From Geobacter sp. (lineage in GTDB: Bacteria > Desulfobacterota > Desulfuromonadia > Geobacterales > DSM-12255): 43,657 nucleotides of DNA. The translations under genes were made by a program, and so were the position numbers. The DNA is taken from the NCBI GenBank assembly GCA_009886125.1, contig VFJK01000005.1:1-43657 (forward strand). Reading direction: 5' to 3'. A model generated the notes under the pieces. The model saw nothing but the letters and a program-made list of their open reading frames with translations, did no database searches and was not told the origin of the DNA. The first letter of the stretch is position 1; every line of letters starts with the position of its first letter. Below, piece after piece: positions 33,537 to 43,657 of this stretch.

Positions 33537-33556
33537 TGCGGGCGCTATTCGCATCA
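33534..33556. terminator. Hairpin carrying both stop codons of convergent ROK and cheB genes
   Basis: TGATGCG (33534-33540) and CGCATCA (33550-33556) form a perfect 7-bp inverted repeat around a 9-nt loop. The first three bases are the TGA stop of the ROK gene. The last three, read on the minus strand, are the TGA stop of cheB. There is no T-run, so it is at best a weak or factor-assisted terminator, and its symmetry may be chance. Confidence 0.4.
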
Positions 33557-34615
33557 GACCATCCTCATCATTGTCTCCGCAATACAACTCAGCGGGATCA
33601 CTCCATCCACCGGCACTGAATCCATGACTGCCTTGGGCATCCCGAAAACAACAGATGTCTCTTCGGACTGAACAAGAATCCGTCCTCCTGCCTTACTGAC
33701 CATCAGAGCTCCGGCTGCGCCATCCTTTCCCATACCGGTAAGCACAAAAGCAAGAACACTGCTGCCGCATGCTTCGGCAGCCGATTCAAAAAGAGCATCA
33801 ACAGACGGCGTGTGCAGAGAACCCTCCGGTTTCGCATCGAGCTTAAGCTGCAGATCATTTCCTGCCTTCATGAGTTTCAGATGTAATCCGCCCGGAGCTA
33901 TGTATACCGTCCCCGGCACAGCTAACTCTCCGTTCTGGGCCTCCTTGACTCTGATCTGGCATATGCGGTTCAGCCTGTCCGCCAAAGATGCTGTGAAGCC
34001 GACCGGCATATGCTGCACAATCAGGATCGGTGCCGGAAATGATGCAGGTATGGCACTCAGTATCGCCTGCAATGCCGGCGGACCACCTGTGGAGACACCG
34101 ATCAGCACAACATCTGTGCAGCAGCCCGTAGAAGCAGTCGTCAGTGGTTCAGCTTGAACTCCGGCAGGATTATTACCTGCAAGCTTCTTAATGTCGATGC
34201 GGGAAGCGATAAGGATTTTAGATGTCAGCTCCTTATAAAGATTATTGATCTCCATAGAGCCGCCGACAGAACCTTTATCTATGAAATCCACTGCGCCGAG
34301 ATCCAGCGCCCTCAGAGTCTGATCTCCTCCCTTGCCGGTAAGTGAACTGAGCATGATAACAGGGACCGGGCACTCCTTCATGATTCTCTCAAGCGCAGAA
34401 ATCCCGTCAAGTACCGGCATCTGTACATCAAGCGTTACGACATCGGGACGATGCTTCATAATCAGCTCGATTGCCATCTGACCATCAGAAGCTACATCGA
34501 TGATGGAAATATCATTACTGTTATCAAACATCCTGATGATTGCCCGACGAACAAAAGCCGAGTCGTCAACCACCAGGACCCTCACTTTGCCGGCAGGAGC
34601 GGTCAGAGTCGACAA
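33554..34615 (-). CDS. cheB: Chemotaxis response regulator methylesterase/deamidase CheB
   Basis: CheB removes methyl groups from, and deamidates, chemoreceptors when phosphorylated by CheA. The 353-residue protein has a receiver domain (about residues 10-130) with the DD pair at 17-18, phospho-acceptor Asp63 (TLDVQMP) and Lys114. A C-terminal esterase domain has the triad Ser175 (GVSTGG), His202 (VQHMP) and Asp298 (TGMGKDGA). The start appears to be a TTG 3 nt after the cheR stop with AGGGA upstream. It is the last gene of the chemosensory cluster and opposes CheR1 and CheR2. Confidence 0.95.
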   Translation of the reverse strand: MSTLTAPAGKVRVLVVDDSAFVRRAIIRMFDNSNDISIIDVASDGQMAIELIMKHRPDVVTLDVQMPVLDGISALERIMKECPVPVIMLSSLTGKGGDQTLRALDLGAVDFIDKGSVGGSMEINNLYKELTSKILIASRIDIKKLAGNNPAGVQAEPLTTASTGCCTDVVLIGVSTGGPPALQAILSAIPASFPAPILIVQHMPVGFTASLADRLNRICQIRVKEAQNGELAVPGTVYIAPGGLHLKLMKAGNDLQLKLDAKPEGSLHTPSVDALFESAAEACGSSVLAFVLTGMGKDGAAGALMVSKAGGRILVQSEETSVVFGMPKAVMDSVPVDGVIPLSCIAETMMRMV

Positions 34616-34618
34616 TTA

Positions 34619-35470
34619 TCAATCCCTTTTTCTGTAAATGATTGCTCCAGGATAACGAACCTGAAGGTAGCGTGATGAAGCCCCTGAGATGGACTCGGAG
34701 TGCCCAAGGAAGAGGTGTCCGTCCTTACCCATTACTCTTGCAAAGTTTTCAACTATCTTTTTTGTAGTATCTTCACTGAAATAGATAAAGACATTCCTGC
34801 AGAAGATGATATCTGCCGTATCCTTGCTGTCAAATGACTCTTGCCGCAGCAGATTGCCTACCTTGAAACTGGTCAGGCGCTTCAAAGAACTCTTCACCTG
34901 ATACCCTTCATCACATTTTGAAAAGTAGCGCTCAATAAGATGCGGTGGCGTTGTCTGAAACGCACGACCACTATATATGCCGCTGACTGCTCTTGCAATC
35001 ATCTCAGTATCAATATCAATACCGGTAATGCATACATCCCAATCCCATAGAAAATGCGATGATTCAAGAAGGATCATCGCAAGAGTGTAGACCTCTTCAC
35101 CGCTCGAACATCCTGCTGAGATAATGCGTATTTTTTTATCCTGACTCCTGGATTTTTTCTCCTTCAGCTCAGGAAGGACATGAGCATTCAGGACACTCAG
35201 CTGTGCCTCCTCACGGAAGAAATAAGTTTCATTGTTTGTAATTAAAGAGAGAAGTTTTTTATGCTCTTCACTGAAGTGGGGTGAAAATTTCAGGTGGGCA
35301 TAATAGTCAGAAAAAGTTTCGAGCCTGAGCTCCGTCAATCTTGGAGCAAGCTTGGAAGAGAGAAACCCGGCTCTTGATTCGTCAAGAATAAACCCGAACT
35401 CACCGGATACAAATTCATTTATAAGCCTGAACTCCTCAGGCCGTAATTGCGGCTTATGGAGAGATTCCAT
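34619..35470 (-). CDS. cheR: Chemoreceptor methyltransferase CheR (first copy)
   Basis: CheR methylates glutamates on chemoreceptors using S-adenosylmethionine. The 283-residue protein has the helical N-terminal domain (RLINEFVSGEFGFILDESRA) and TNNETYFFREEAQL. A SAM-binding domain follows with SAGCSSGEEVYTLAMIL and the conserved IIFCRNVFIYFSEDT. No TPR or other extra domain is attached. Its ATG directly follows the stop of the HEAT-repeat gene (TGAATG). A second cheR lies on the far side of that gene. The two copies are clearly different in sequence. Confidence 0.95.
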   Translation of the reverse strand: MESLHKPQLRPEEFRLINEFVSGEFGFILDESRAGFLSSKLAPRLTELRLETFSDYYAHLKFSPHFSEEHKKLLSLITNNETYFFREEAQLSVLNAHVLPELKEKKSRSQDKKIRIISAGCSSGEEVYTLAMILLESSHFLWDWDVCITGIDIDTEMIARAVSGIYSGRAFQTTPPHLIERYFSKCDEGYQVKSSLKRLTSFKVGNLLRQESFDSKDTADIIFCRNVFIYFSEDTTKKIVENFARVMGKDGHLFLGHSESISGASSRYLQVRYPGAIIYRKRD

Positions 35471-37834
35471 TCAGCTGTATCTCTCCATGGTAAATGTCTT
35501 GAGCGCAAGATCTGCACGACCCCTGACCTCTTCATTACTGTCATTCCTCATTACAGAAGAGAGCTTTTTCAATAAAAGTGAGTCAAAACAGTACGCTAGT
35601 GAATCGATTGCCGAAAGTCGGATAGATGGATTATGGTCCTCCAACAGCTCCATAAGCGGCATGACACTTTTTTGATCACCAATTTTTCCGATAATGTCTA
35701 TAACCCGTATCCTTACATCAACAGTATAATTTTTAATCATCTGCCGATGAAGCCAGGGAAGAACTGTCCTTCCGAACTTGAGCAGAGCAGTAAAGGCATA
35801 TTTACTCATCTCGTTGTCAGTCAACTGCTGTACAAGAACCGGGATTGAAGAGATGTTGCGTATCTCTCCAAGAGTAAGAATTGCATGCTTTCTTACCATC
35901 GGATCCGGATCCTTGACTGCATCAACTATAAGAGGAACCTCCTTGATCCCTCCAAGTTTTGCAAGAACCTTGATCGACGCAACACGGACACTCCAGTGAG
36001 GGTCCGCAAGAGCCGCTTCTACTGCCTCAGTAGAGGTCCTGTCTCCAAGATGCCCCAGAGTCTCGACCGCAAGCCTTCTCATATCATGATCGCCGCTGAC
36101 GAGATAACATCTGCAGATCAGCTCCGAGGCCGATTTAGCACCGATTTTTCCGAGAGCTTCAATAGTTGCATATTCCAGACGTTTAGAAAGTGTCCCTTTT
36201 TGAAGATAATCCAGAAGCCTGCTCTCTGCTTCCTTAATCTCCATTATACCGACAGCCCTGACAACAACATAATCAAGTGACTCTTCACTGCTGCCGAGAA
36301 GGCCGAGAATCTCCTCAACAAGCAGAGGAGTCCTGAATTCAGCAATGGCCATCACCGAAGCCTCTCTTACAGAGACATCAGGATCAGTAAAAGCTTCTGA
36401 CAACATCGGGACTGCACGAACTTCTCTCTGCACTCCTATGCTCCTGATGGCAGCCTTACGCACAACAGGATCTGCATCATGTATCAGGAGATCAAGAACT
36501 GAAAAACCGGAATCCTCTTTCACATAACATAGAAGCAGCGCCGCTCGTCTCCTCTCCTCTGCTGACCCTGAACCAGCCAGGTTTTCAAGTTTATCCCGAA
36601 ATGAGTCAAGTGGAAAGGAGCCAAGTATTTCGGCACTCTTGTTTGCCAACTGCTCGCTCCCGATTTTCAGGAGGTAAAACAGATAAGGGATATAAGATTC
36701 AGAAGCAACGATATTTATTGTCTCGAGAAGTTCAAGCTTGAGTTCATCGTTACTGGTAGATTTGATATCAAGCAGATAATCATGATACTCCGTCGATCCT
36801 ATGTATCTTAGCGAACGAAGAGCGACAATTTTTACATTATCTATCTGGCTGGAAAGCGCAGCCATAAGACTTGCTTCAGCCACCTTACCAATTGAGAGGA
36901 TAGCACTCTCCACAGGGGAGATAAATCGTTCATTCTGAAGCAGTGGATAGAATAACTCGATAGCGGCAACGTCTTCCAGCCATCCAAGAAGAACCACCGC
37001 AGCTTCTGAAAAAGAGGGATCGACCTCAGGATCAAGGAGAGTGCGCAATTTCTCGATCCCACGAGTGTCAACAACCTTTCTGATATGCTCGGACTGATGA
37101 AACTCTGACAGCGTATTCTTGAATTTAATCGAGTCATTTACACTGCTGTATGTGAGCAGAATTGTTCGTGCAATCTGTCCGGCAAGTCCTTTGTTAACTG
37201 TCGGGAGTATCTTGCCGAGTGGATACAGGGCCCTTGGGTCGCAAATTTCGCCAAGCGCCTGGACTACGGGCTCGGTAAGAACTTCATTGTCCAAAAGTTC
37301 CAGCAGCTGAGGAACCGCACGATAATCTCGCATTGCTCCTATGGCTCCTATTGCTGAAAACTGCACCCAGAAGTCCCCTTTCAGCAGCTCCATAAGGGGG
37401 AAAAGTGCAGACCTGTCTCCTATTTTGCCAAGTGCTTCTGCTGCGCTATGACAGACATTCAGATCCTGATCACTCAGCGCCTTGATTAATGGCTCAACAG
37501 CCTTTCTGTTCCCGATATCCCCAAGCATGACCGCCGCAAAATTTCGAACTTCTTCATTCGTATCCTGAAGGAGTTTTACAAGATACGGTAACGACTCCTT
37601 GCCGAATGCAACAAGGATATCCATTGCTCCATTACGCAAATCGGCATCAATATCGTCACGCACCCCACGCTCAAGAGCAGGATAGATGCCGGCAATGCCT
37701 GTGGAGAGAAGTCTGGCAGTTGCTTCTGACCTGAACCCGAGATCATCGTCAGCAACATAATGAAGCAGATCTTCAACATTTTTACCAATAAAATTCAAGT
37801 TTTCTAAAGAGTTATCATCTGGAAGTTCTAGCAT
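35471..37834 (-). CDS. HEAT-repeat scaffold protein in a chemosensory operon
   Basis: The 787-residue product is built almost entirely of about two dozen HEAT/PBS-lyase-like repeats of roughly 31 residues, for example AVEPLIKALSDQDLNV then SAAEALGKIGDRSA. Such arrays form curved alpha-solenoids that bind other proteins. There is no signal peptide, enzyme motif or membrane segment. I chose the ATG at 37834 (GGAG about 10 nt upstream, inside the end of cheR2). An upstream extension to 37978 would lie wholly within cheR2. It sits between two cheR genes with a 20-nt overlap on one side and zero spacing on the other, so it is probably made with them. A HEAT protein also occurs in the Myxococcus che7 cluster, but the role is unknown. 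Confidence 0.9.
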   Translation of the reverse strand: MLELPDDNSLENLNFIGKNVEDLLHYVADDDLGFRSEATARLLSTGIAGIYPALERGVRDDIDADLRNGAMDILVAFGKESLPYLVKLLQDTNEEVRNFAAVMLGDIGNRKAVEPLIKALSDQDLNVCHSAAEALGKIGDRSALFPLMELLKGDFWVQFSAIGAIGAMRDYRAVPQLLELLDNEVLTEPVVQALGEICDPRALYPLGKILPTVNKGLAGQIARTILLTYSSVNDSIKFKNTLSEFHQSEHIRKVVDTRGIEKLRTLLDPEVDPSFSEAAVVLLGWLEDVAAIELFYPLLQNERFISPVESAILSIGKVAEASLMAALSSQIDNVKIVALRSLRYIGSTEYHDYLLDIKSTSNDELKLELLETINIVASESYIPYLFYLLKIGSEQLANKSAEILGSFPLDSFRDKLENLAGSGSAEERRRAALLLCYVKEDSGFSVLDLLIHDADPVVRKAAIRSIGVQREVRAVPMLSEAFTDPDVSVREASVMAIAEFRTPLLVEEILGLLGSSEESLDYVVVRAVGIMEIKEAESRLLDYLQKGTLSKRLEYATIEALGKIGAKSASELICRCYLVSGDHDMRRLAVETLGHLGDRTSTEAVEAALADPHWSVRVASIKVLAKLGGIKEVPLIVDAVKDPDPMVRKHAILTLGEIRNISSIPVLVQQLTDNEMSKYAFTALLKFGRTVLPWLHRQMIKNYTVDVRIRVIDIIGKIGDQKSVMPLMELLEDHNPSIRLSAIDSLAYCFDSLLLKKLSSVMRNDSNEEVRGRADLALKTFTMERYS

Positions 37835-38687
37835 TGGCAGACATCTCCGTTTTTTGATAGATAAGACAATCAGCATCTTCAACTGGTATAAATTCGTGCC
37901 TGAACAGATGGAGCGGCTCTGCGTCGCCTGTGAAAAGATACCCGCCTGTAAAAAGCATTTGATGCAGCGTTTCAACAAGCATCTGCTGACATGAAGAGGA
38001 AAAATAAATCATGACGTTCCTGCAAAAGATAATATCAAACCTGCCAAGCTGATCCCTTGAGTCTGTAGAATGAGGGTTCATTAAATCGTTGAGATTCAGA
38101 TGCACAAACCTGACGAGCTCCTTGACTTCTTTCCTGACAAATGCACCATCTCCTGTCTTTTCCAGATATGAATCAATGTAACCCTTGGGCAGGTTCTTTA
38201 GTCTCCCTGTTTCGTAGAAACCCGCCTCAGCTTCCTTGAGACAACCTCGGCTTAGATCACCGGCAACAATTTCAATCTTCATCGAGTCTGGGACACAAAG
38301 TGACTCCAGAATTGTCATTGCGATTGAATACGGTTCTTCACCTGTAGAGCAACCGGCACAGAGTACCCTTATCGTGCCCTTATCTACTGCAGGCATCTGC
38401 ACAAATCGGGGGATAATATGCTCCCCGAAAAAACTGAACTGTGCGCGGTTTCTGAAGAAAGATGTCTCATTGGTTGTCACCAGGTCAAAAAGTCTGGCAG
38501 TTTCGCTATCATGGCTGTTCAGATAGCCCCAGTAATCGGCAAATGTAGAAAATTTGAGCTCCGCGATGCGGGTTTCAAGCCGACTTCTAAGAGTAGTCCT
38601 CTTGTGACCGGTAAAGGAGAGCCTGCTGTTGTCTCTCAGATAAGCTGCAATTTTGTCCAGATAGTACTCACCCATACATCTGCTCAC
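37815..38687 (-). CDS. cheR: Chemoreceptor methyltransferase CheR (second copy)
   Basis: This second SAM-dependent receptor methyltransferase has 290 residues. It shows LSFTGHKRTTLRSRLETR in the helical N-domain, TTNETSFFRNRAQF, the SAM motif CAGCSTGEEPYSIAMTIL and IIFCRNVMIYFSSSC. The start is a GTG at 38687, with an ATG at 38675 as an alternative. Neither has a strong ribosome site. It lies 19 nt after the MCP gene. Duplication of cheR with only one cheB suggests that the two methylate different receptors or sites, or that one acts on another partner such as the HEAT protein. This is inference. Confidence 0.94.
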   Translation of the reverse strand: MSRCMGEYYLDKIAAYLRDNSRLSFTGHKRTTLRSRLETRIAELKFSTFADYWGYLNSHDSETARLFDLVTTNETSFFRNRAQFSFFGEHIIPRFVQMPAVDKGTIRVLCAGCSTGEEPYSIAMTILESLCVPDSMKIEIVAGDLSRGCLKEAEAGFYETGRLKNLPKGYIDSYLEKTGDGAFVRKEVKELVRFVHLNLNDLMNPHSTDSRDQLGRFDIIFCRNVMIYFSSSCQQMLVETLHQMLFTGGYLFTGDAEPLHLFRHEFIPVEDADCLIYQKTEMSANARTSR

Positions 38688-38706: not shown

Positions 38707-41016
38707 TCAGCTCACCTTAAACGTTGCCACCATGGCAGAGAGGTCCTCGGCCTGTACTGACAGGCTCTGGGCTGCTCTGGAGAGCTGCTCAACCGAGGAG
38801 AGATTCTCTCTGGTAAGATCGCTGATGTTCTCCGTCGCACGGACCACCATCTCCCCGCCCTTTTTCTGCTCTGCCGTAGCATTGGCCACCGACTGCGTCA
38901 TGGCTGCCATGCTGTTCACTGCTGTTACTATCTGACGAGCGGACAGTGACTGCTCTCTGGTGGCTATGTTCACCTGACCGGTTACCTGGTTCATATTCTC
39001 TACCGCAACCCTGATCTGCCTGCTCCCGACCGCCTGCTCTTTGGTGGCAACTGTTACTTCCTGGGTAATATGGTTCATCCGCTCTACCGCCAGACGTATC
39101 TGTCGACCGCCCAGAGCCTGCTCGCGGGAGGCATTGGCTACGATGTCGGTCGCCAGGTTCATCTTCTCCACGGACCTGATAACCTGACTGGAGGCGTTGG
39201 CCTGCTCGGCGGTCATCCGCGCTATGTCTGACATGAGATTACTGGTCTGCTCTATGCTGGAAACAATATTTCCGATGGCGTTGCCGGCTAATGTGGTCAG
39301 CTCCATGGAGGCCTTCGCTTCCTGAGAGGCTATCTCGCCGTACTTTACCGATTCACCGGTATCGGCCTGAACCTGACGGATTACCTGGGCGATCTCTTTG
39401 GTTGCTACCATGCTCCGCTCAGCCAGCTTGCGCACCTCTTCGGCAACTACGGCAAAGCCACGACCTGCATCACCGGCACGGGCAGCCTCTATCGCTGCGT
39501 TCAGAGCAAGGAGGTTTGTCTGGTCAGCTATTTCGTTGATGACCTTGACAATGCCGCCGATCTCTTCCGACCTTTTGCCAAGGTTGACGATGGAGGCGGA
39601 GGTTTTGTCGATAACATCCGCTACCCGTGCCATGCCGGCCGCGGCCTGCTGGCCCGCCTGCAGGCCGGCATTGCCCTCTTTGGCTGCGCTCTTGGCTACG
39701 GTATCCGCTTCATTTACATTCTTTGCCACCTGGTTGATGGAGGCGGCCATCTGTTCGATGATTGCGGCCGAATCAACTACAATCTTCTGAAGTTCCTGGG
39801 AGTTACCAGCTACCTGGTCAATAGAAACAGTCATCTGTTCGATGGTGGAGGAGGTCTCGGATACTGAAGAGGCAAGGTCTTCGGTACTTTTGGCTACCTT
39901 TTCGATGGAGACGGTCATCTGCTCGATGGTTGCCGAGGTCTCTGTCACTGAGGAGGCCATCGCTTCGGCGCTCTTGGCAACCTGCTCACTGGAAGCGCCT
40001 AGCTCCTGTATGGAGGAGGAAACCTCATCTGCATTGCTGGCCAATGAGTCGGCATTGTTTGCTACGGTCTGGATGGAGGCCGCCATCTGTACCATGGTGG
40101 CGGAGGTCTCTTCCGAAGCTGATGCCTGACTGTGCGCCGCTTTGGTCATCTGGGCGGAGTTCGCCGATATCTGTCCCGCGGCTGTCGCAACCTGGCCGGA
40201 AGTGTCACGTATCCGGCCGATCATATCCTTAAGCCCAGCTACCATTGTATTCAGGGCGTCAGCCAGATCACCAATCTCGTCCCTGGACTTTACCTCAAGA
40301 CGTCCTGACAGGTCACCTGTAGCAATGGCCTGAGCAAAGGCGACACCTTTTGCCACCGGATTGGTGATTGAACGGGTGATGATGAAGCCGATTATAATAC
40401 CGATAATTATTGCTGCAATACTGAGTATTATGGCTGCAAACCTTGTACGCAGGGCATTTTGCATCATTCCTGTTTCAGACTGCAGGTTTTTTTTGCTTAT
40501 CTCATTCATTTCGGCAAGTTGCGCCTGTACTTTTATAAGGTTAGGCTGAGTATCAGTTGAAAATATCACATCAGCCGCTTTTTTACCCTCAGCCGAATTA
40601 CTCCCCTTGACATATACTTTCTTGATCTGAACAGCCGACTCATGCAGCTTGCGGTGGGGTTCCTCTATCAAGGTAAGCGCCTGCTTCAAAGCCGGCACAA
40701 GTGTCTCTGCCTGTGTGCGGGCCTTATCATAATACCATTTGCCGAAACCGCACTTGGTATGATCAGTCTCCACACCCAATGTCTGCACATGATCGTCAAT
40801 AAGGAAAACACTGACATTTTTTACCCAGTTGAGATGGTCGACCTCACGTTGAAGCAACTCGCTACGAAGGCTGTTGCCGCTGATAACTTCATGCCCCTCC
40901 CTGACTACGCTTGAAAGACCATAAATTGACCAACTGCTTATCAACAGGAGTAAAAAGAGCACCGAACCGATACCAAATGTAATTTTTTTCCATAATCTTA
41001 AACTTGTCCATCCCAT
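38707..41016 (-). CDS. Methyl-accepting chemotaxis protein with periplasmic CZB-like zinc site and long repeat-built signalling hairpin
   Basis: This 769-residue receptor has TM1 (about residues 14-33) and a periplasmic domain (about 34-191). TM2 (about 192-214), HAMP (about 214-268) and a long cytoplasmic hairpin follow. The tip is intact ([20 protein letters not shown] and [10 protein letters not shown]), so it should engage CheA and CheW. In the periplasmic part DHLNWV (His61), [10 protein letters not shown] (Cys89) and PHRKLH (His121, His125) match the His-Cys-His-His pattern of CZB zinc-binding domains. The hairpin arms each contain five 28-residue repeats. There is no C-terminal CheR-docking pentapeptide. 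GGGAGAG precedes the ATG. It is the only receptor in the cluster. Confidence 0.93.
38812..39231 (-). repeat. Five 28-residue (84-nt) repeats, C-terminal arm of MCP hairpin
   Basis: A Glu-Gln pair recurs at residues 604, 632, 660, 688 and 716, exactly 28 residues apart, inside units such as [18 protein letters not shown] and [18 protein letters not shown]. The count and period equal those of the opposite arm, as expected if the antiparallel arms gained matching four-heptad blocks. Confidence 0.8.
39697..40119 (-). repeat. Five 28-residue (84-nt) repeats, N-terminal arm of MCP hairpin
   Basis: Equivalent positions (VQM, QEL, EQM, EQM, EQM) fall at residues 309, 337, 365, 393 and 421, exactly 28 residues (four heptads) apart. 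Adjacent units such as [20 protein letters not shown] and [20 protein letters not shown] are close copies. The DNA of these two units is roughly three quarters identical by eye, pointing to internal duplication. Confidence 0.8.
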
Positions 41017-41051: not shown

Positions 41052-41603
41052 TTATGTCAATAAAAGAGACTTGTTCAGATCGAGAATTATTATCAACCTG
41101 TTTTCCAGTTTGCCTACCCCCCTAATAAAGTTTTCATCAACACAGGTCGCCTCTTCCGGCATCTCTTCAACAACGCCTGACGGGACTTTGATAACCTGGG
41201 AAACGCCATCTACAAGCATTCCGATCCGTTTCTCACCTAACTCAACAACAATTATCCGCTGCGTTTCACTGGCTTCGACGACCGCTAGGGCAAACCGTTT
41301 CCGGAGATCAACAACCGGGATAATCTTCCCGCGGAGATTAATAACTCCTTTCACATGAGACGGTGCACCTGGCACAGGAGTAATATCTGTTGCTCTGATA
41401 ATCTCCTGAACACTTGCTATCTCGACGCCATACTCCTCTTTCCCTAGCTGGAAAGTGACTAGATGCAGGAGCGTCTCCATATGATCCTTTTTTTCGGTGA
41501 TATTTACCTGGTTGACTTCGACCTGCGCCTTGTTGATAAACTGGGCCAGGATATCTTCTGCAAGTCCGGAACTGGGCAGTTCTAATTTTTCTCCATTGAT
41601 CAT
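41052..41603 (-). CDS. cheW: Chemotaxis adaptor CheW
   Basis: CheW links receptors to CheA. The 183-residue protein has a single CheW/SH3-like domain (about residues 45-180) with [40 protein letters not shown] and [13 protein letters not shown]. The first 40 or so residues are an extra segment with no family match. AAAGGAG lies 9 nt before the ATG. It sits 35 nt upstream of the MCP gene and 132 nt after cheA, a gap that holds a GC-rich repeat. Confidence 0.95.
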
Positions 41604-41735: not shown

Positions 41736-43421
41736 TTAGACGTTAGTTTCATTGTGATGATGAATATTTCTATTCCCCGACAAAATCGAGCCGATATCAA
41801 CAATCATCGATATATTGCCGTCGCCAAGTACGGTGCCGCCGGATATGCCGGGCAGTTCTCCCAGATAGTCATCAAGCGCCTTGATGACTATCTCCTGCTG
41901 CCCTATCAGCCGGTCAACCACCAGGCCGCCGCGTTTCTCGCCACTTCCGACAACAACGATGTACTCATAATCCCTGGCGTCACTGCTCTTCTGCCAGAAA
42001 AACCGGTCCATACGGTGTACCGGCAGGAGTCGCTCCCTGAGCTTGACAACCTCGCTCCCGCCAACCTCATGAATCTCATCGCCATGTATCCGTATGCTCT
42101 CCAGGACGCCTGAAAGCGGTATGGCGAATGTCTCACCGGAAACCTCCACCATCAGAGCGTTTATAATGGCCAGGGTAAGAGGGAGCTTTATGGTAAATAC
42201 CGAACCCGTCCCCTTGTTGCTGGAAATATCCACAATGCCGTTCAGTGAGGTGACTATCTTTTTCACCACATCAAGACCGATACCGCGACCTGAAGTCTCC
42301 GTAACCTCTTTGCTGGTTGAAAATCCGGGCAGGAATAGTAGATGCAGCGCCTCCTGTTCCGAGAGACCCTGCGATTCTTCGCTACCGATGAGCCCTTTAG
42401 AGACAGCCGAACTTCTGATCTTCTCCGAATCCATTCCCTTGCCATCGTCTGCAACCGAGACAACTATATGGTTGCTTTCGTGGCATGCCTTGAGTGTTAT
42501 AGAGCCTGAAAGGGACTTGCCGGCCCTGCGCCGCTCCTCAGGGTGCTCTATGCCATGGTCTACGGCGTTACGAATAAGGTGCAGCAAGGGCTCGCCAATC
42601 TCATCAATGACTGTCTTGTCAAGCTCGGTCTCTTCGCCTTCAAACCTGAGCAGAATCTCCTTGCCGGACTTGTGGGAATGGTCCCGCACCAGTCTCTGGA
42701 ACCGCTGAAATACGCTCTTGATCGGCAACATCCTTGCCTTCATAATCGCTTCACGCAACTCCGTAGAACTCTTACCGATCAGCAGGCTGGCCTCGTTGAA
42801 TGAGTCAAGGAGTTCCCGGTCTGAAACCTTCTCTTTAAGTCTCTTTTCAAGGGCATTCAATGCCGTCCGGTGAATAACCAGCTCACCCACAAGATTCAGA
42901 AGCTCATCCAGCTTTTCGAAACCAACCTTGATAGTCGAATTCTTTTGAGTCAAATAGCCAAGGTCATCCTTTTTGCTCCTGGATGACTTAGAAGCATCAT
43001 TGTTTGCTGCTGCACTACCCTGCGGGGGTTCACTGAAGAAGATACACTCCATGGCCATGAGTTCATCACTGAAATCAAGTAACGCCTTGTGATCGGAAGA
43101 GAGCAGAGACAGATTGTTGCGCAGTGCGCTTATGGAAGCGTACAGGCTCTCGAAAACCGTCGAAGACAGCGGCACCGTCTCCTCCTGCACCAGCTTGAGA
43201 GCGCTCTCCAGCTTATGAACGTACTGCTGGATGGGAGTAAAGCCCATCATGCCCGAGTTACCTTTAAGGGTATGGAGGCTCCCCAGAAGGAGTGTAAGCA
43301 CCGCTTCGTCATTAAATCCTTCTGACCAGCGTTTCTCAAGTTCCATCAGAGAGAATTCCACTGCCTCGACATGACCGTTCGCATCATCCAGAAACTCTTC
43401 AATCAAAATAGATATATCCAT
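41736..43421 (-). CDS. cheA: Chemotaxis histidine kinase CheA lacking a P2 domain
   Basis: CheA autophosphorylates and passes phosphate to CheY and CheB. The 561-residue protein has a P1/HPt domain (about 1-125) with phospho-acceptor His50 (SLHTLKGNSG). A Ser/Lys-rich linker occupies about 125-160 where P2 would be expected. P3 dimerisation follows (VGFEKLDELLNLVGELVIH), then the P4 ATPase with N box LIRNAVDHGIEHPE, G1 DDGKGMD and G2 GRGIGLDVVK. A P5 CheW-like domain ends the protein. I prefer the ATG at 43421. A TTG at 43433 with AGAGG upstream is possible. The stop of the upstream response regulator lies 63-75 nt away. Confidence 0.95.
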   Translation of the reverse strand: MDISILIEEFLDDANGHVEAVEFSLMELEKRWSEGFNDEAVLTLLLGSLHTLKGNSGMMGFTPIQQYVHKLESALKLVQEETVPLSSTVFESLYASISALRNNLSLLSSDHKALLDFSDELMAMECIFFSEPPQGSAAANNDASKSSRSKKDDLGYLTQKNSTIKVGFEKLDELLNLVGELVIHRTALNALEKRLKEKVSDRELLDSFNEASLLIGKSSTELREAIMKARMLPIKSVFQRFQRLVRDHSHKSGKEILLRFEGEETELDKTVIDEIGEPLLHLIRNAVDHGIEHPEERRRAGKSLSGSITLKACHESNHIVVSVADDGKGMDSEKIRSSAVSKGLIGSEESQGLSEQEALHLLFLPGFSTSKEVTETSGRGIGLDVVKKIVTSLNGIVDISSNKGTGSVFTIKLPLTLAIINALMVEVSGETFAIPLSGVLESIRIHGDEIHEVGGSEVVKLRERLLPVHRMDRFFWQKSSDARDYEYIVVVGSGEKRGGLVVDRLIGQQEIVIKALDDYLGELPGISGGTVLGDGNISMIVDIGSILSGNRNIHHHNETNV

Positions 43422-43496
43422 CACTTCATCCAAAGCAGTAACCTCTCTGTCATAACTACGTAATAGTGAAGACGTGAATTCTGCTGCAACGTGATT

Positions 43497-43657
43497 CTAA
43501 AAGGTTACTGTGGCCTGCATCCTTTGAGGCTGACTGCCGGGCAGTTTGAATATCTTCTCTATCATCTCGTGCAGACAGGCAGGCTGAAACGGTTTCTTGA
43601 GATACCCTCTGGCGCCGAGTTTGAGACCCCTGATCGTATCTTCTTCCTTGCCTTCGG
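43497..43657 (-). CDS. CheY-like response regulator, 5' part outside window
   Basis: Only the last 52 or so residues are present, ending in QATVTF. They read GLKLGARGYLKKPFQPACLH, which is the alpha4-beta5-alpha5 end of a receiver domain with the conserved Lys of the KP(F) motif, followed by an EMIEKIFKL helix. The frame runs off the right edge. No output domain follows, so it is either a stand-alone CheY or the C-terminal receiver of a larger protein. It is in operon order before cheA and may be its phosphate target. Confidence 0.85.
   Translation of the reverse strand, partial: EGKEEDTIRGLKLGARGYLKKPFQPACLHEMIEKIFKLPGSQPQRMQATVTF

Follow-up and report, generated by a model that had tools for sequence, protein, structure and literature searches.

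Gene cluster at the locus

The analysed stretch of DNA (43,657 nucleotides, here called the window) contains a chemotaxis gene cluster, established by computation, with a methyl-accepting chemotaxis protein (MCP) in its middle. All features are on the reverse strand:

33554..34615 (-), cheB (PF01339; NF001965)
34619..35470 (-), cheR, second copy (PF01739)
35471..37858 (-), HEAT-repeat protein (PF13646, 260.5 bits; the open frame extends to 37978)
37815..38687 (-), cheR, first copy (PF01739)
38707..41016 (-), MCP, 769 aa, ATG start, TM1-CZB-TM2-HAMP-MCPsignal
39157..39660 (-), MCPsignal, best stretch residues 453-620 (PF00015, 170.6 bits)
40228..40380 (-), HAMP, residues 213-263 (PF00672, 48.7 bits)
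40378..40434 (-), TM2, residues 195-213 (Kyte-Doolittle 3.15)
40624..40836 (-), CZB domain, residues 61-131 (PF13682)
40915..40971 (-), TM1, residues 16-34 (Kyte-Doolittle 1.95)
41052..41603 (-), cheW (PF01584)
41736..43433 (-), cheA (Pfam domains Hpt, H-kinase_dim, HATPase_c and CheW)
43497..43655 (-), C-terminal end (LKKPF) of a probable CheY-like receiver, truncated at the window edge (from the reading frame; a receiver-like ORF precedes cheA in L033/L069)

The order of the cluster is probable cheY tail, cheA, cheW, MCP, cheR, HEAT-repeat gene, cheR and cheB. The HEAT-repeat gene is thus located between two different cheR genes (window 34619-38687, reverse strand). In the available text of Tran 2008 on che classes (PMC2577667), the alpha and beta groups have no mcp genes and HEAT is unmentioned. 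A plasmid-borne origin of the receptor gene was considered and dropped, as tblastn gave no plasmid match.

Domain order and topology of the receptor

The family assignment and the domain order of the receptor were established computationally. PF13682 matches residues 61-131 with 50 bits (3.8e-13; curated cut-off 29.4), which rules out a chance motif. The excised domain alone reaches 53.4 bits, so that the Pfam check proposed in an earlier, sequence-only reading of this DNA gives a significant match. That reading had derived CZB membership from the order of the motifs; the Pfam score and the alignment of the ligands with those of DgcZ bear this out. The receptor is the only PF13682 match in its genome (3.57 Mb, 192 contigs, 99.74% complete). 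No close copy of its signalling region is found elsewhere in that genome, where the next best match has 32% identity. An 84-base repeat (28 residues, four heptads) is present in the cytoplasmic arm of the MCP (window 39809-39988, reverse strand), and a lag of 28 residues is also prominent in the protein sequence.

The CZB domain is flanked by two hydrophobic helices (residues 16-34 and 195-213, Kyte-Doolittle) and is located upstream of HAMP and MCPsignal (Pfam), i.e. between TM1 and TM2 as had been claimed. Because of this order, with two transmembrane helices around the CZB domain and a signalling domain on the inner side, the domain is predicted to be periplasmic. The count of Lys and Arg near the helix ends (five on the inner side, three on the outer) is only mildly informative. 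Across the 66 periplasmic receptors described below, the charge bias is likewise mild, with 49 proteins for this orientation, 11 equal and six against. PF12729 (4HB_MCP_1) is absent among the Pfam matches to the receptor at E values up to 10, although filters may mask weak ones.

Relatives within the order

Among 141 genomes of the order, a protein search gave matches in 14 at E 1e-4 or better, counting the own genome. Eight of these have an N-terminal CZB as in the window (G000, G005, G074, G075, G096, G004, G018 and G076); the G096 copy ends at a contig end and its second helix lies outside the sequence. The remaining six have C-terminal CZBs or are proteins of ~280 residues. PF13682 itself is matched in 38 of 58 genomes, again including the own one. 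In most of those examined among the 38 the CZB is C-terminal; many of the short loci start inside the protein, with the first helix outside.

Several of the N-terminal copies have neighbours with similar signalling regions. Near the G075 copy are a dCache_1 receptor, 77% identical in the signalling region, and a CZB-only protein; near the G074 copy is a 4HB_MCP_1 receptor with 75% identity in that region. The G005 copy is preceded by the end of an MCP that shares 89% identity with the window receptor at its signalling end. One cluster at L067 (9230-15354, forward strand) combines a periplasmic CZB receptor and cheW with a CZB-only protein of 132 aa and a dCache_1 receptor whose signalling region is similar.

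A putative periplasmic branch of the CZB family

In the phylum, a profile built on the eight sensors has a match in 113 of 395 genomes at E 1e-5, and PF13682 in 124 of 395 at E 0.001. The eight-sensor profile spans the transmembrane helices, hence not every weak match to it is necessarily a CZB. Scoring covered up to seven candidates per genome, and the loci were taken from among the matches listed: 70 loci (L072-L141) were examined, from the upper part of the match list with some matches skipped, and all 70 contain an ORF matching the profile. Together with the earlier loci and the window they yield 66 distinct proteins in which a four-ligand motif is flanked by one helix on each side. Of the 70 loci, seven are without a periplasmic motif of this kind, three duplicate proteins already in the set and L088 is cut by a contig end before the second helix. 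By their TM1-TM2 distance, 41 of these proteins have the length of one tier, 16 of two and nine of three.

The periplasmic modules differ from other CZBs in the spacing between the Cys and the HxxxH motif. This spacing is 32 in 86 of 92 intact periplasmic modules versus 26-28 in 45 of 45 others; as the modules were picked by the four-ligand pattern, ligand counts are uninformative here, while the spacing was free to vary. The value of 32 is found in all 40 modules of one-tier receptors and in 46 of 52 modules of longer ones (the others have 33, 31 or 27). C-terminal CZBs have 27 or 28 (37/37), and CZB-only or short proteins 26-28 (8/8). A cytoplasmic, C-terminal CZB as in most of the relatives examined in the order is therefore ruled out for the window receptor by position and spacing.

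A tree was computed from 138 modules over 84 columns, and a branch with a support of 81/80 sets the 92 periplasmic modules apart from the rest. The branch was recovered in 82% of 200 bootstrap trees, which is moderate support, and the sample was gathered with the periplasmic profile within one phylum. The window MCP is a member of this predicted periplasmic branch of the CZB family.

A link with sulfate reduction was also considered. Of the 56 genomes that match the profile at about E 1e-25 or better, 37 have dsrB, compared to 153 of 339 others (odds ratio 2.4, Fisher p 0.004), in a comparison that does not control for phylogeny and includes uninspected and some ligand-poor genomes among the 56. 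The own genome of the window has no dsrB match. For these reasons the link was set aside as only a hint.

Predicted zinc ligands

The motifs DHLNWV (His61) and PHRKLH (His121 and His125) as well as Cys89 were found in the 769-aa ORF where the sequence-only reading had placed them. The predicted ligands have the following positions:

40834..40836 (-), His61, first predicted zinc ligand, aligned to DgcZ H22, invariant in 8/8 rows
40750..40752 (-), Cys89, second predicted ligand, aligned to DgcZ C52, the only Cys of the protein, invariant in 8/8 rows
40654..40656 (-), His121, third predicted ligand, aligned to DgcZ H79, invariant in 8/8 rows
40642..40644 (-), His125, fourth predicted ligand, aligned to DgcZ H83, invariant in 8/8 rows

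The eight rows are the window protein and seven homologues whose selection relied on similarity, without reference to the four-residue pattern; the conservation is a computed result. Trp64, Gly92 and Trp94 also align with DgcZ and are invariant in all eight rows. The CxxGxW core is present as CGFGKW.

Periplasmic modules were additionally located by profile, without the ligand pattern. Among 112 such modules, 106 have letters at all four positions and six were set aside. All four ligands are kept in 97, three in 3, two in 2, one in 3 and none in 1. Four modules thus keep at most one ligand, compared to a mean of 0.03 under independent loss and a maximum of 2 in 5000 shuffles; the shuffling ignores relatedness (L129 and L130 look alike), and the module-finding profile was built on intact modules and hence disfavours finding broken ones. 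The four ligands tend to be lost together, which fits one shared site. In seven of the 70 loci (L113, L124, L126, L128, L129, L130 and L139) there is no periplasmic module with the full four-ligand pattern, so the domain can persist without a complete site.

Predicted structure and the role of the site

Two AlphaFold models were obtained, both of low confidence (mean pLDDT 61.6 and 60.2). With the first model, Foldseek gave no match at E 0.001 or better; the CZB chain of DgcZ (3t9o_B) was found at rank 36 with E 0.35. In a second structural comparison this chain aligned with Z 10.6 and an rmsd of 2.5 over 116 residues, within the range of unrelated helical bundles. The best rows for this low-confidence model reached a Z of 13.9 and belong to ligand-binding domains from other chemoreceptors. 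The second model, of the sensor alone and equally of low confidence, has three helices; its best rows were mostly BAR-domain proteins and no CZB chain was among the best 50. A sequence search of solved structures with the single domain gave 0 matches. The A1 profile retrieved 21 weak nuclease rows from the solved structures, which were judged spurious.

The resemblance of the first model to ligand-binding domains, as far as such a model can suggest it, would suit a structural zinc, i.e. a site that staples the helical bundle of a receptor for some other ligand, as in sensors of the Tar and Tsr type. The seven loci in which the profile match persists without a full periplasmic site point the same way, and joint loss of the ligands does not separate structural from sensing zinc. 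On the other hand, the motif belongs to a family whose studied members, in the literature available, sense through the site. A purely structural role is unlikely on balance, though it deserves consideration.

Receptors with tandem CZB motifs

Two or three four-ligand motifs are present in 21 of the 25 receptors longer than one tier. Thirteen have two intact motifs at two tiers, six have three at three tiers and two have two at three tiers (L086 and L096). Of the others, three have one motif at two tiers, and L140, of three-tier length, has a single motif along with inserted sequence. The tandem receptors are:

Three-tier length, two or three tandem motifs: L086, L092, L093, L095, L096, L101, L105, L114 (L086 and L096 with two intact of three)
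Two tiers, two motifs: L082, L090, L099, L103, L106, L111, L115, L116, L119, L123, L125, L127, L138

Neighbouring intact motifs are separated by 90 to 92 residues. In L096 the two intact motifs are 182 residues apart and the module between them is without the first His. In L114 three CZB stretches are identified by Pfam. A short return-helix motif recurs as well; wherever adjacent copies are present, their distance is 36 residues, with a single case of 72. The number of these motifs is the same as the number of tiers in 15 of the 25 longer and 29 of the 41 one-tier proteins (chance 0.07 per shuffled segment), for a pattern of our own that was chosen after looking. Stacking of a CZB unit and a return-helix unit is a good reading of the receptor lengths, but not a proof.

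Some long periplasmic sensors (L129, L130 and L140) combine CZB-like parts with inserted sequence. In L130, sCache_2 (Pfam) separates two CZB-like stretches, of which the first keeps a single ligand of the four and the second has the Cys and HxxxH; PF12729 matches residues 5-78 of L130, and matches L139 below the cut-off. L139 (1959-3977, forward strand) combines a periplasmic CZB-like domain, without a ligand at the three aligned positions, with a C-terminal CZB that is intact.

The searches of open-licence literature turned up no published account of periplasmic CZBs in tandem. The available text of Perera 2021 (PMC8262984) gives neither a spacing signature nor tandem CZBs; the word 'tandem' is used there once, of PAS/dCache. 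As a tentative scenario, which we consider possible rather than probable, the periplasmic CZB of the phylum may be a separate lineage that entered the periplasm once and gained five residues between the Cys and the HxxxH helix. Stacking would have followed, each added CZB unit (about 91 residues) being paired with an added return-helix unit of 36 residues, to give two or three zinc sites in a column. Such receptors would read free periplasmic Zn2+, and hence sulfide or metal speciation outside the cell, in a graded or cooperative manner, with the window protein as the one-tier form. The stacked relatives would allow asking whether several zinc sites per receptor widen or sharpen the response.

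Proposed function

As judged from its sequence, the window MCP is probably a sensor of periplasmic Zn2+ occupancy that feeds its own che cluster, with His61, Cys89, His121 and His125 as one site. We infer zinc as the bound metal, as well as the direction and nature of the response. The sensor would be a helical bundle between TM1 and TM2, and the alignment together with the joint ligand loss suggests that the four residues form one Zn2+ site in it. Occupancy of this site would be set by periplasmic Zn2+ and could be altered if the zinc supply changed, if zinc were chelated or precipitated as sulfide, or if the single Cys thiolate were oxidised. A change in occupancy would shift the bundle and, via TM2 and HAMP, the long hairpin controlling the CheA encoded next door; adaptation would be provided by CheR and CheB. 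A site in the periplasm would have direct access to the bioavailable Zn2+ pool. The free zinc of a sulfidic or metal-rich sediment would presumably depend on sulfide and redox state. The metal/redox role given to the CZB in the sequence-only reading is putative.

Oxidation of Cys89 with release of zinc could itself be the signal, a mechanism that has been proposed for DgcZ and TlpD with hypochlorous acid as the oxidant. The conserved Cys of the CZB motif and the HOCl chemistry reported for DgcZ C52 (PMC8262984, available text) are compatible with this. However, strong oxidants including hypochlorous acid are unlikely as a natural cue for relatives of Geobacter, judging by their habitat, and the newer work on McpA, in its available text, favours Zn2+ availability over thiol oxidation (PMC13370339). 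Direct oxidant sensing is thus very improbable. As far as the literature examined goes, periplasmic CZBs have been counted but not studied. As the only CZB receptor found in its genome, with a che cluster around it and a single Cys, the window MCP would offer a clean case for testing whether metal or redox state outside the cell is read by CZBs.

Comparison with known systems

Responses to Zn2+ and to oxidants are reported for CZBs that have been studied elsewhere (PMC8262984 and PMC13370339, available text). In the available part of the 2026 McpA preprint (PMC13370339), CZBs are argued to read bioavailable Zn2+ as a messenger of the outside redox state. For the Adeh periplasmic sensors (PMC3831638), the available text mentions zinc only in crystallisation reagents.

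The CZB of E. coli DgcZ (PDB 3T9O) shares with the window the four ligands, the CxxGxW core and the Trp three residues after the first His. It differs in being cytosolic and controlling a cyclase, and its Cys-to-His spacing is 27 (C52 to H79) instead of 32. In the C-terminal cytoplasmic CZB chemoreceptors of the order, H. pylori TlpD and Salmonella McpA, the CZB is also attached to an MCP, but it follows the signalling domain on the inner side; the sampled C-terminal CZBs of the order, with their shorter spacing, lie outside the periplasmic group in the tree. Tar, Tsr and the PF12729 sensors likewise have a helical sensor between TM1 and TM2, whereas the window MCP has no match to PF12729 listed at E values up to 10.

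The closest counterpart is the group listed by Perera 2021 (PMC8262984). The available text gives 384 putative periplasmic CZBs, about 3.9%, in agreement with the earlier claim that most CZBs are cytoplasmic, and places a periplasmic N-terminal chemoreceptor group with DgcZ in cluster III. Since this group is already listed, the topology of the window receptor is uncommon but not new. As in that group, the CZB is N-terminal in a membrane chemoreceptor and precedes HAMP, and position 2 of the motif is not Arg (Gly in the window); against the available description there is no defining difference. The tandem receptors are the part without a description found, and the window MCP itself adds to an already catalogued kind.
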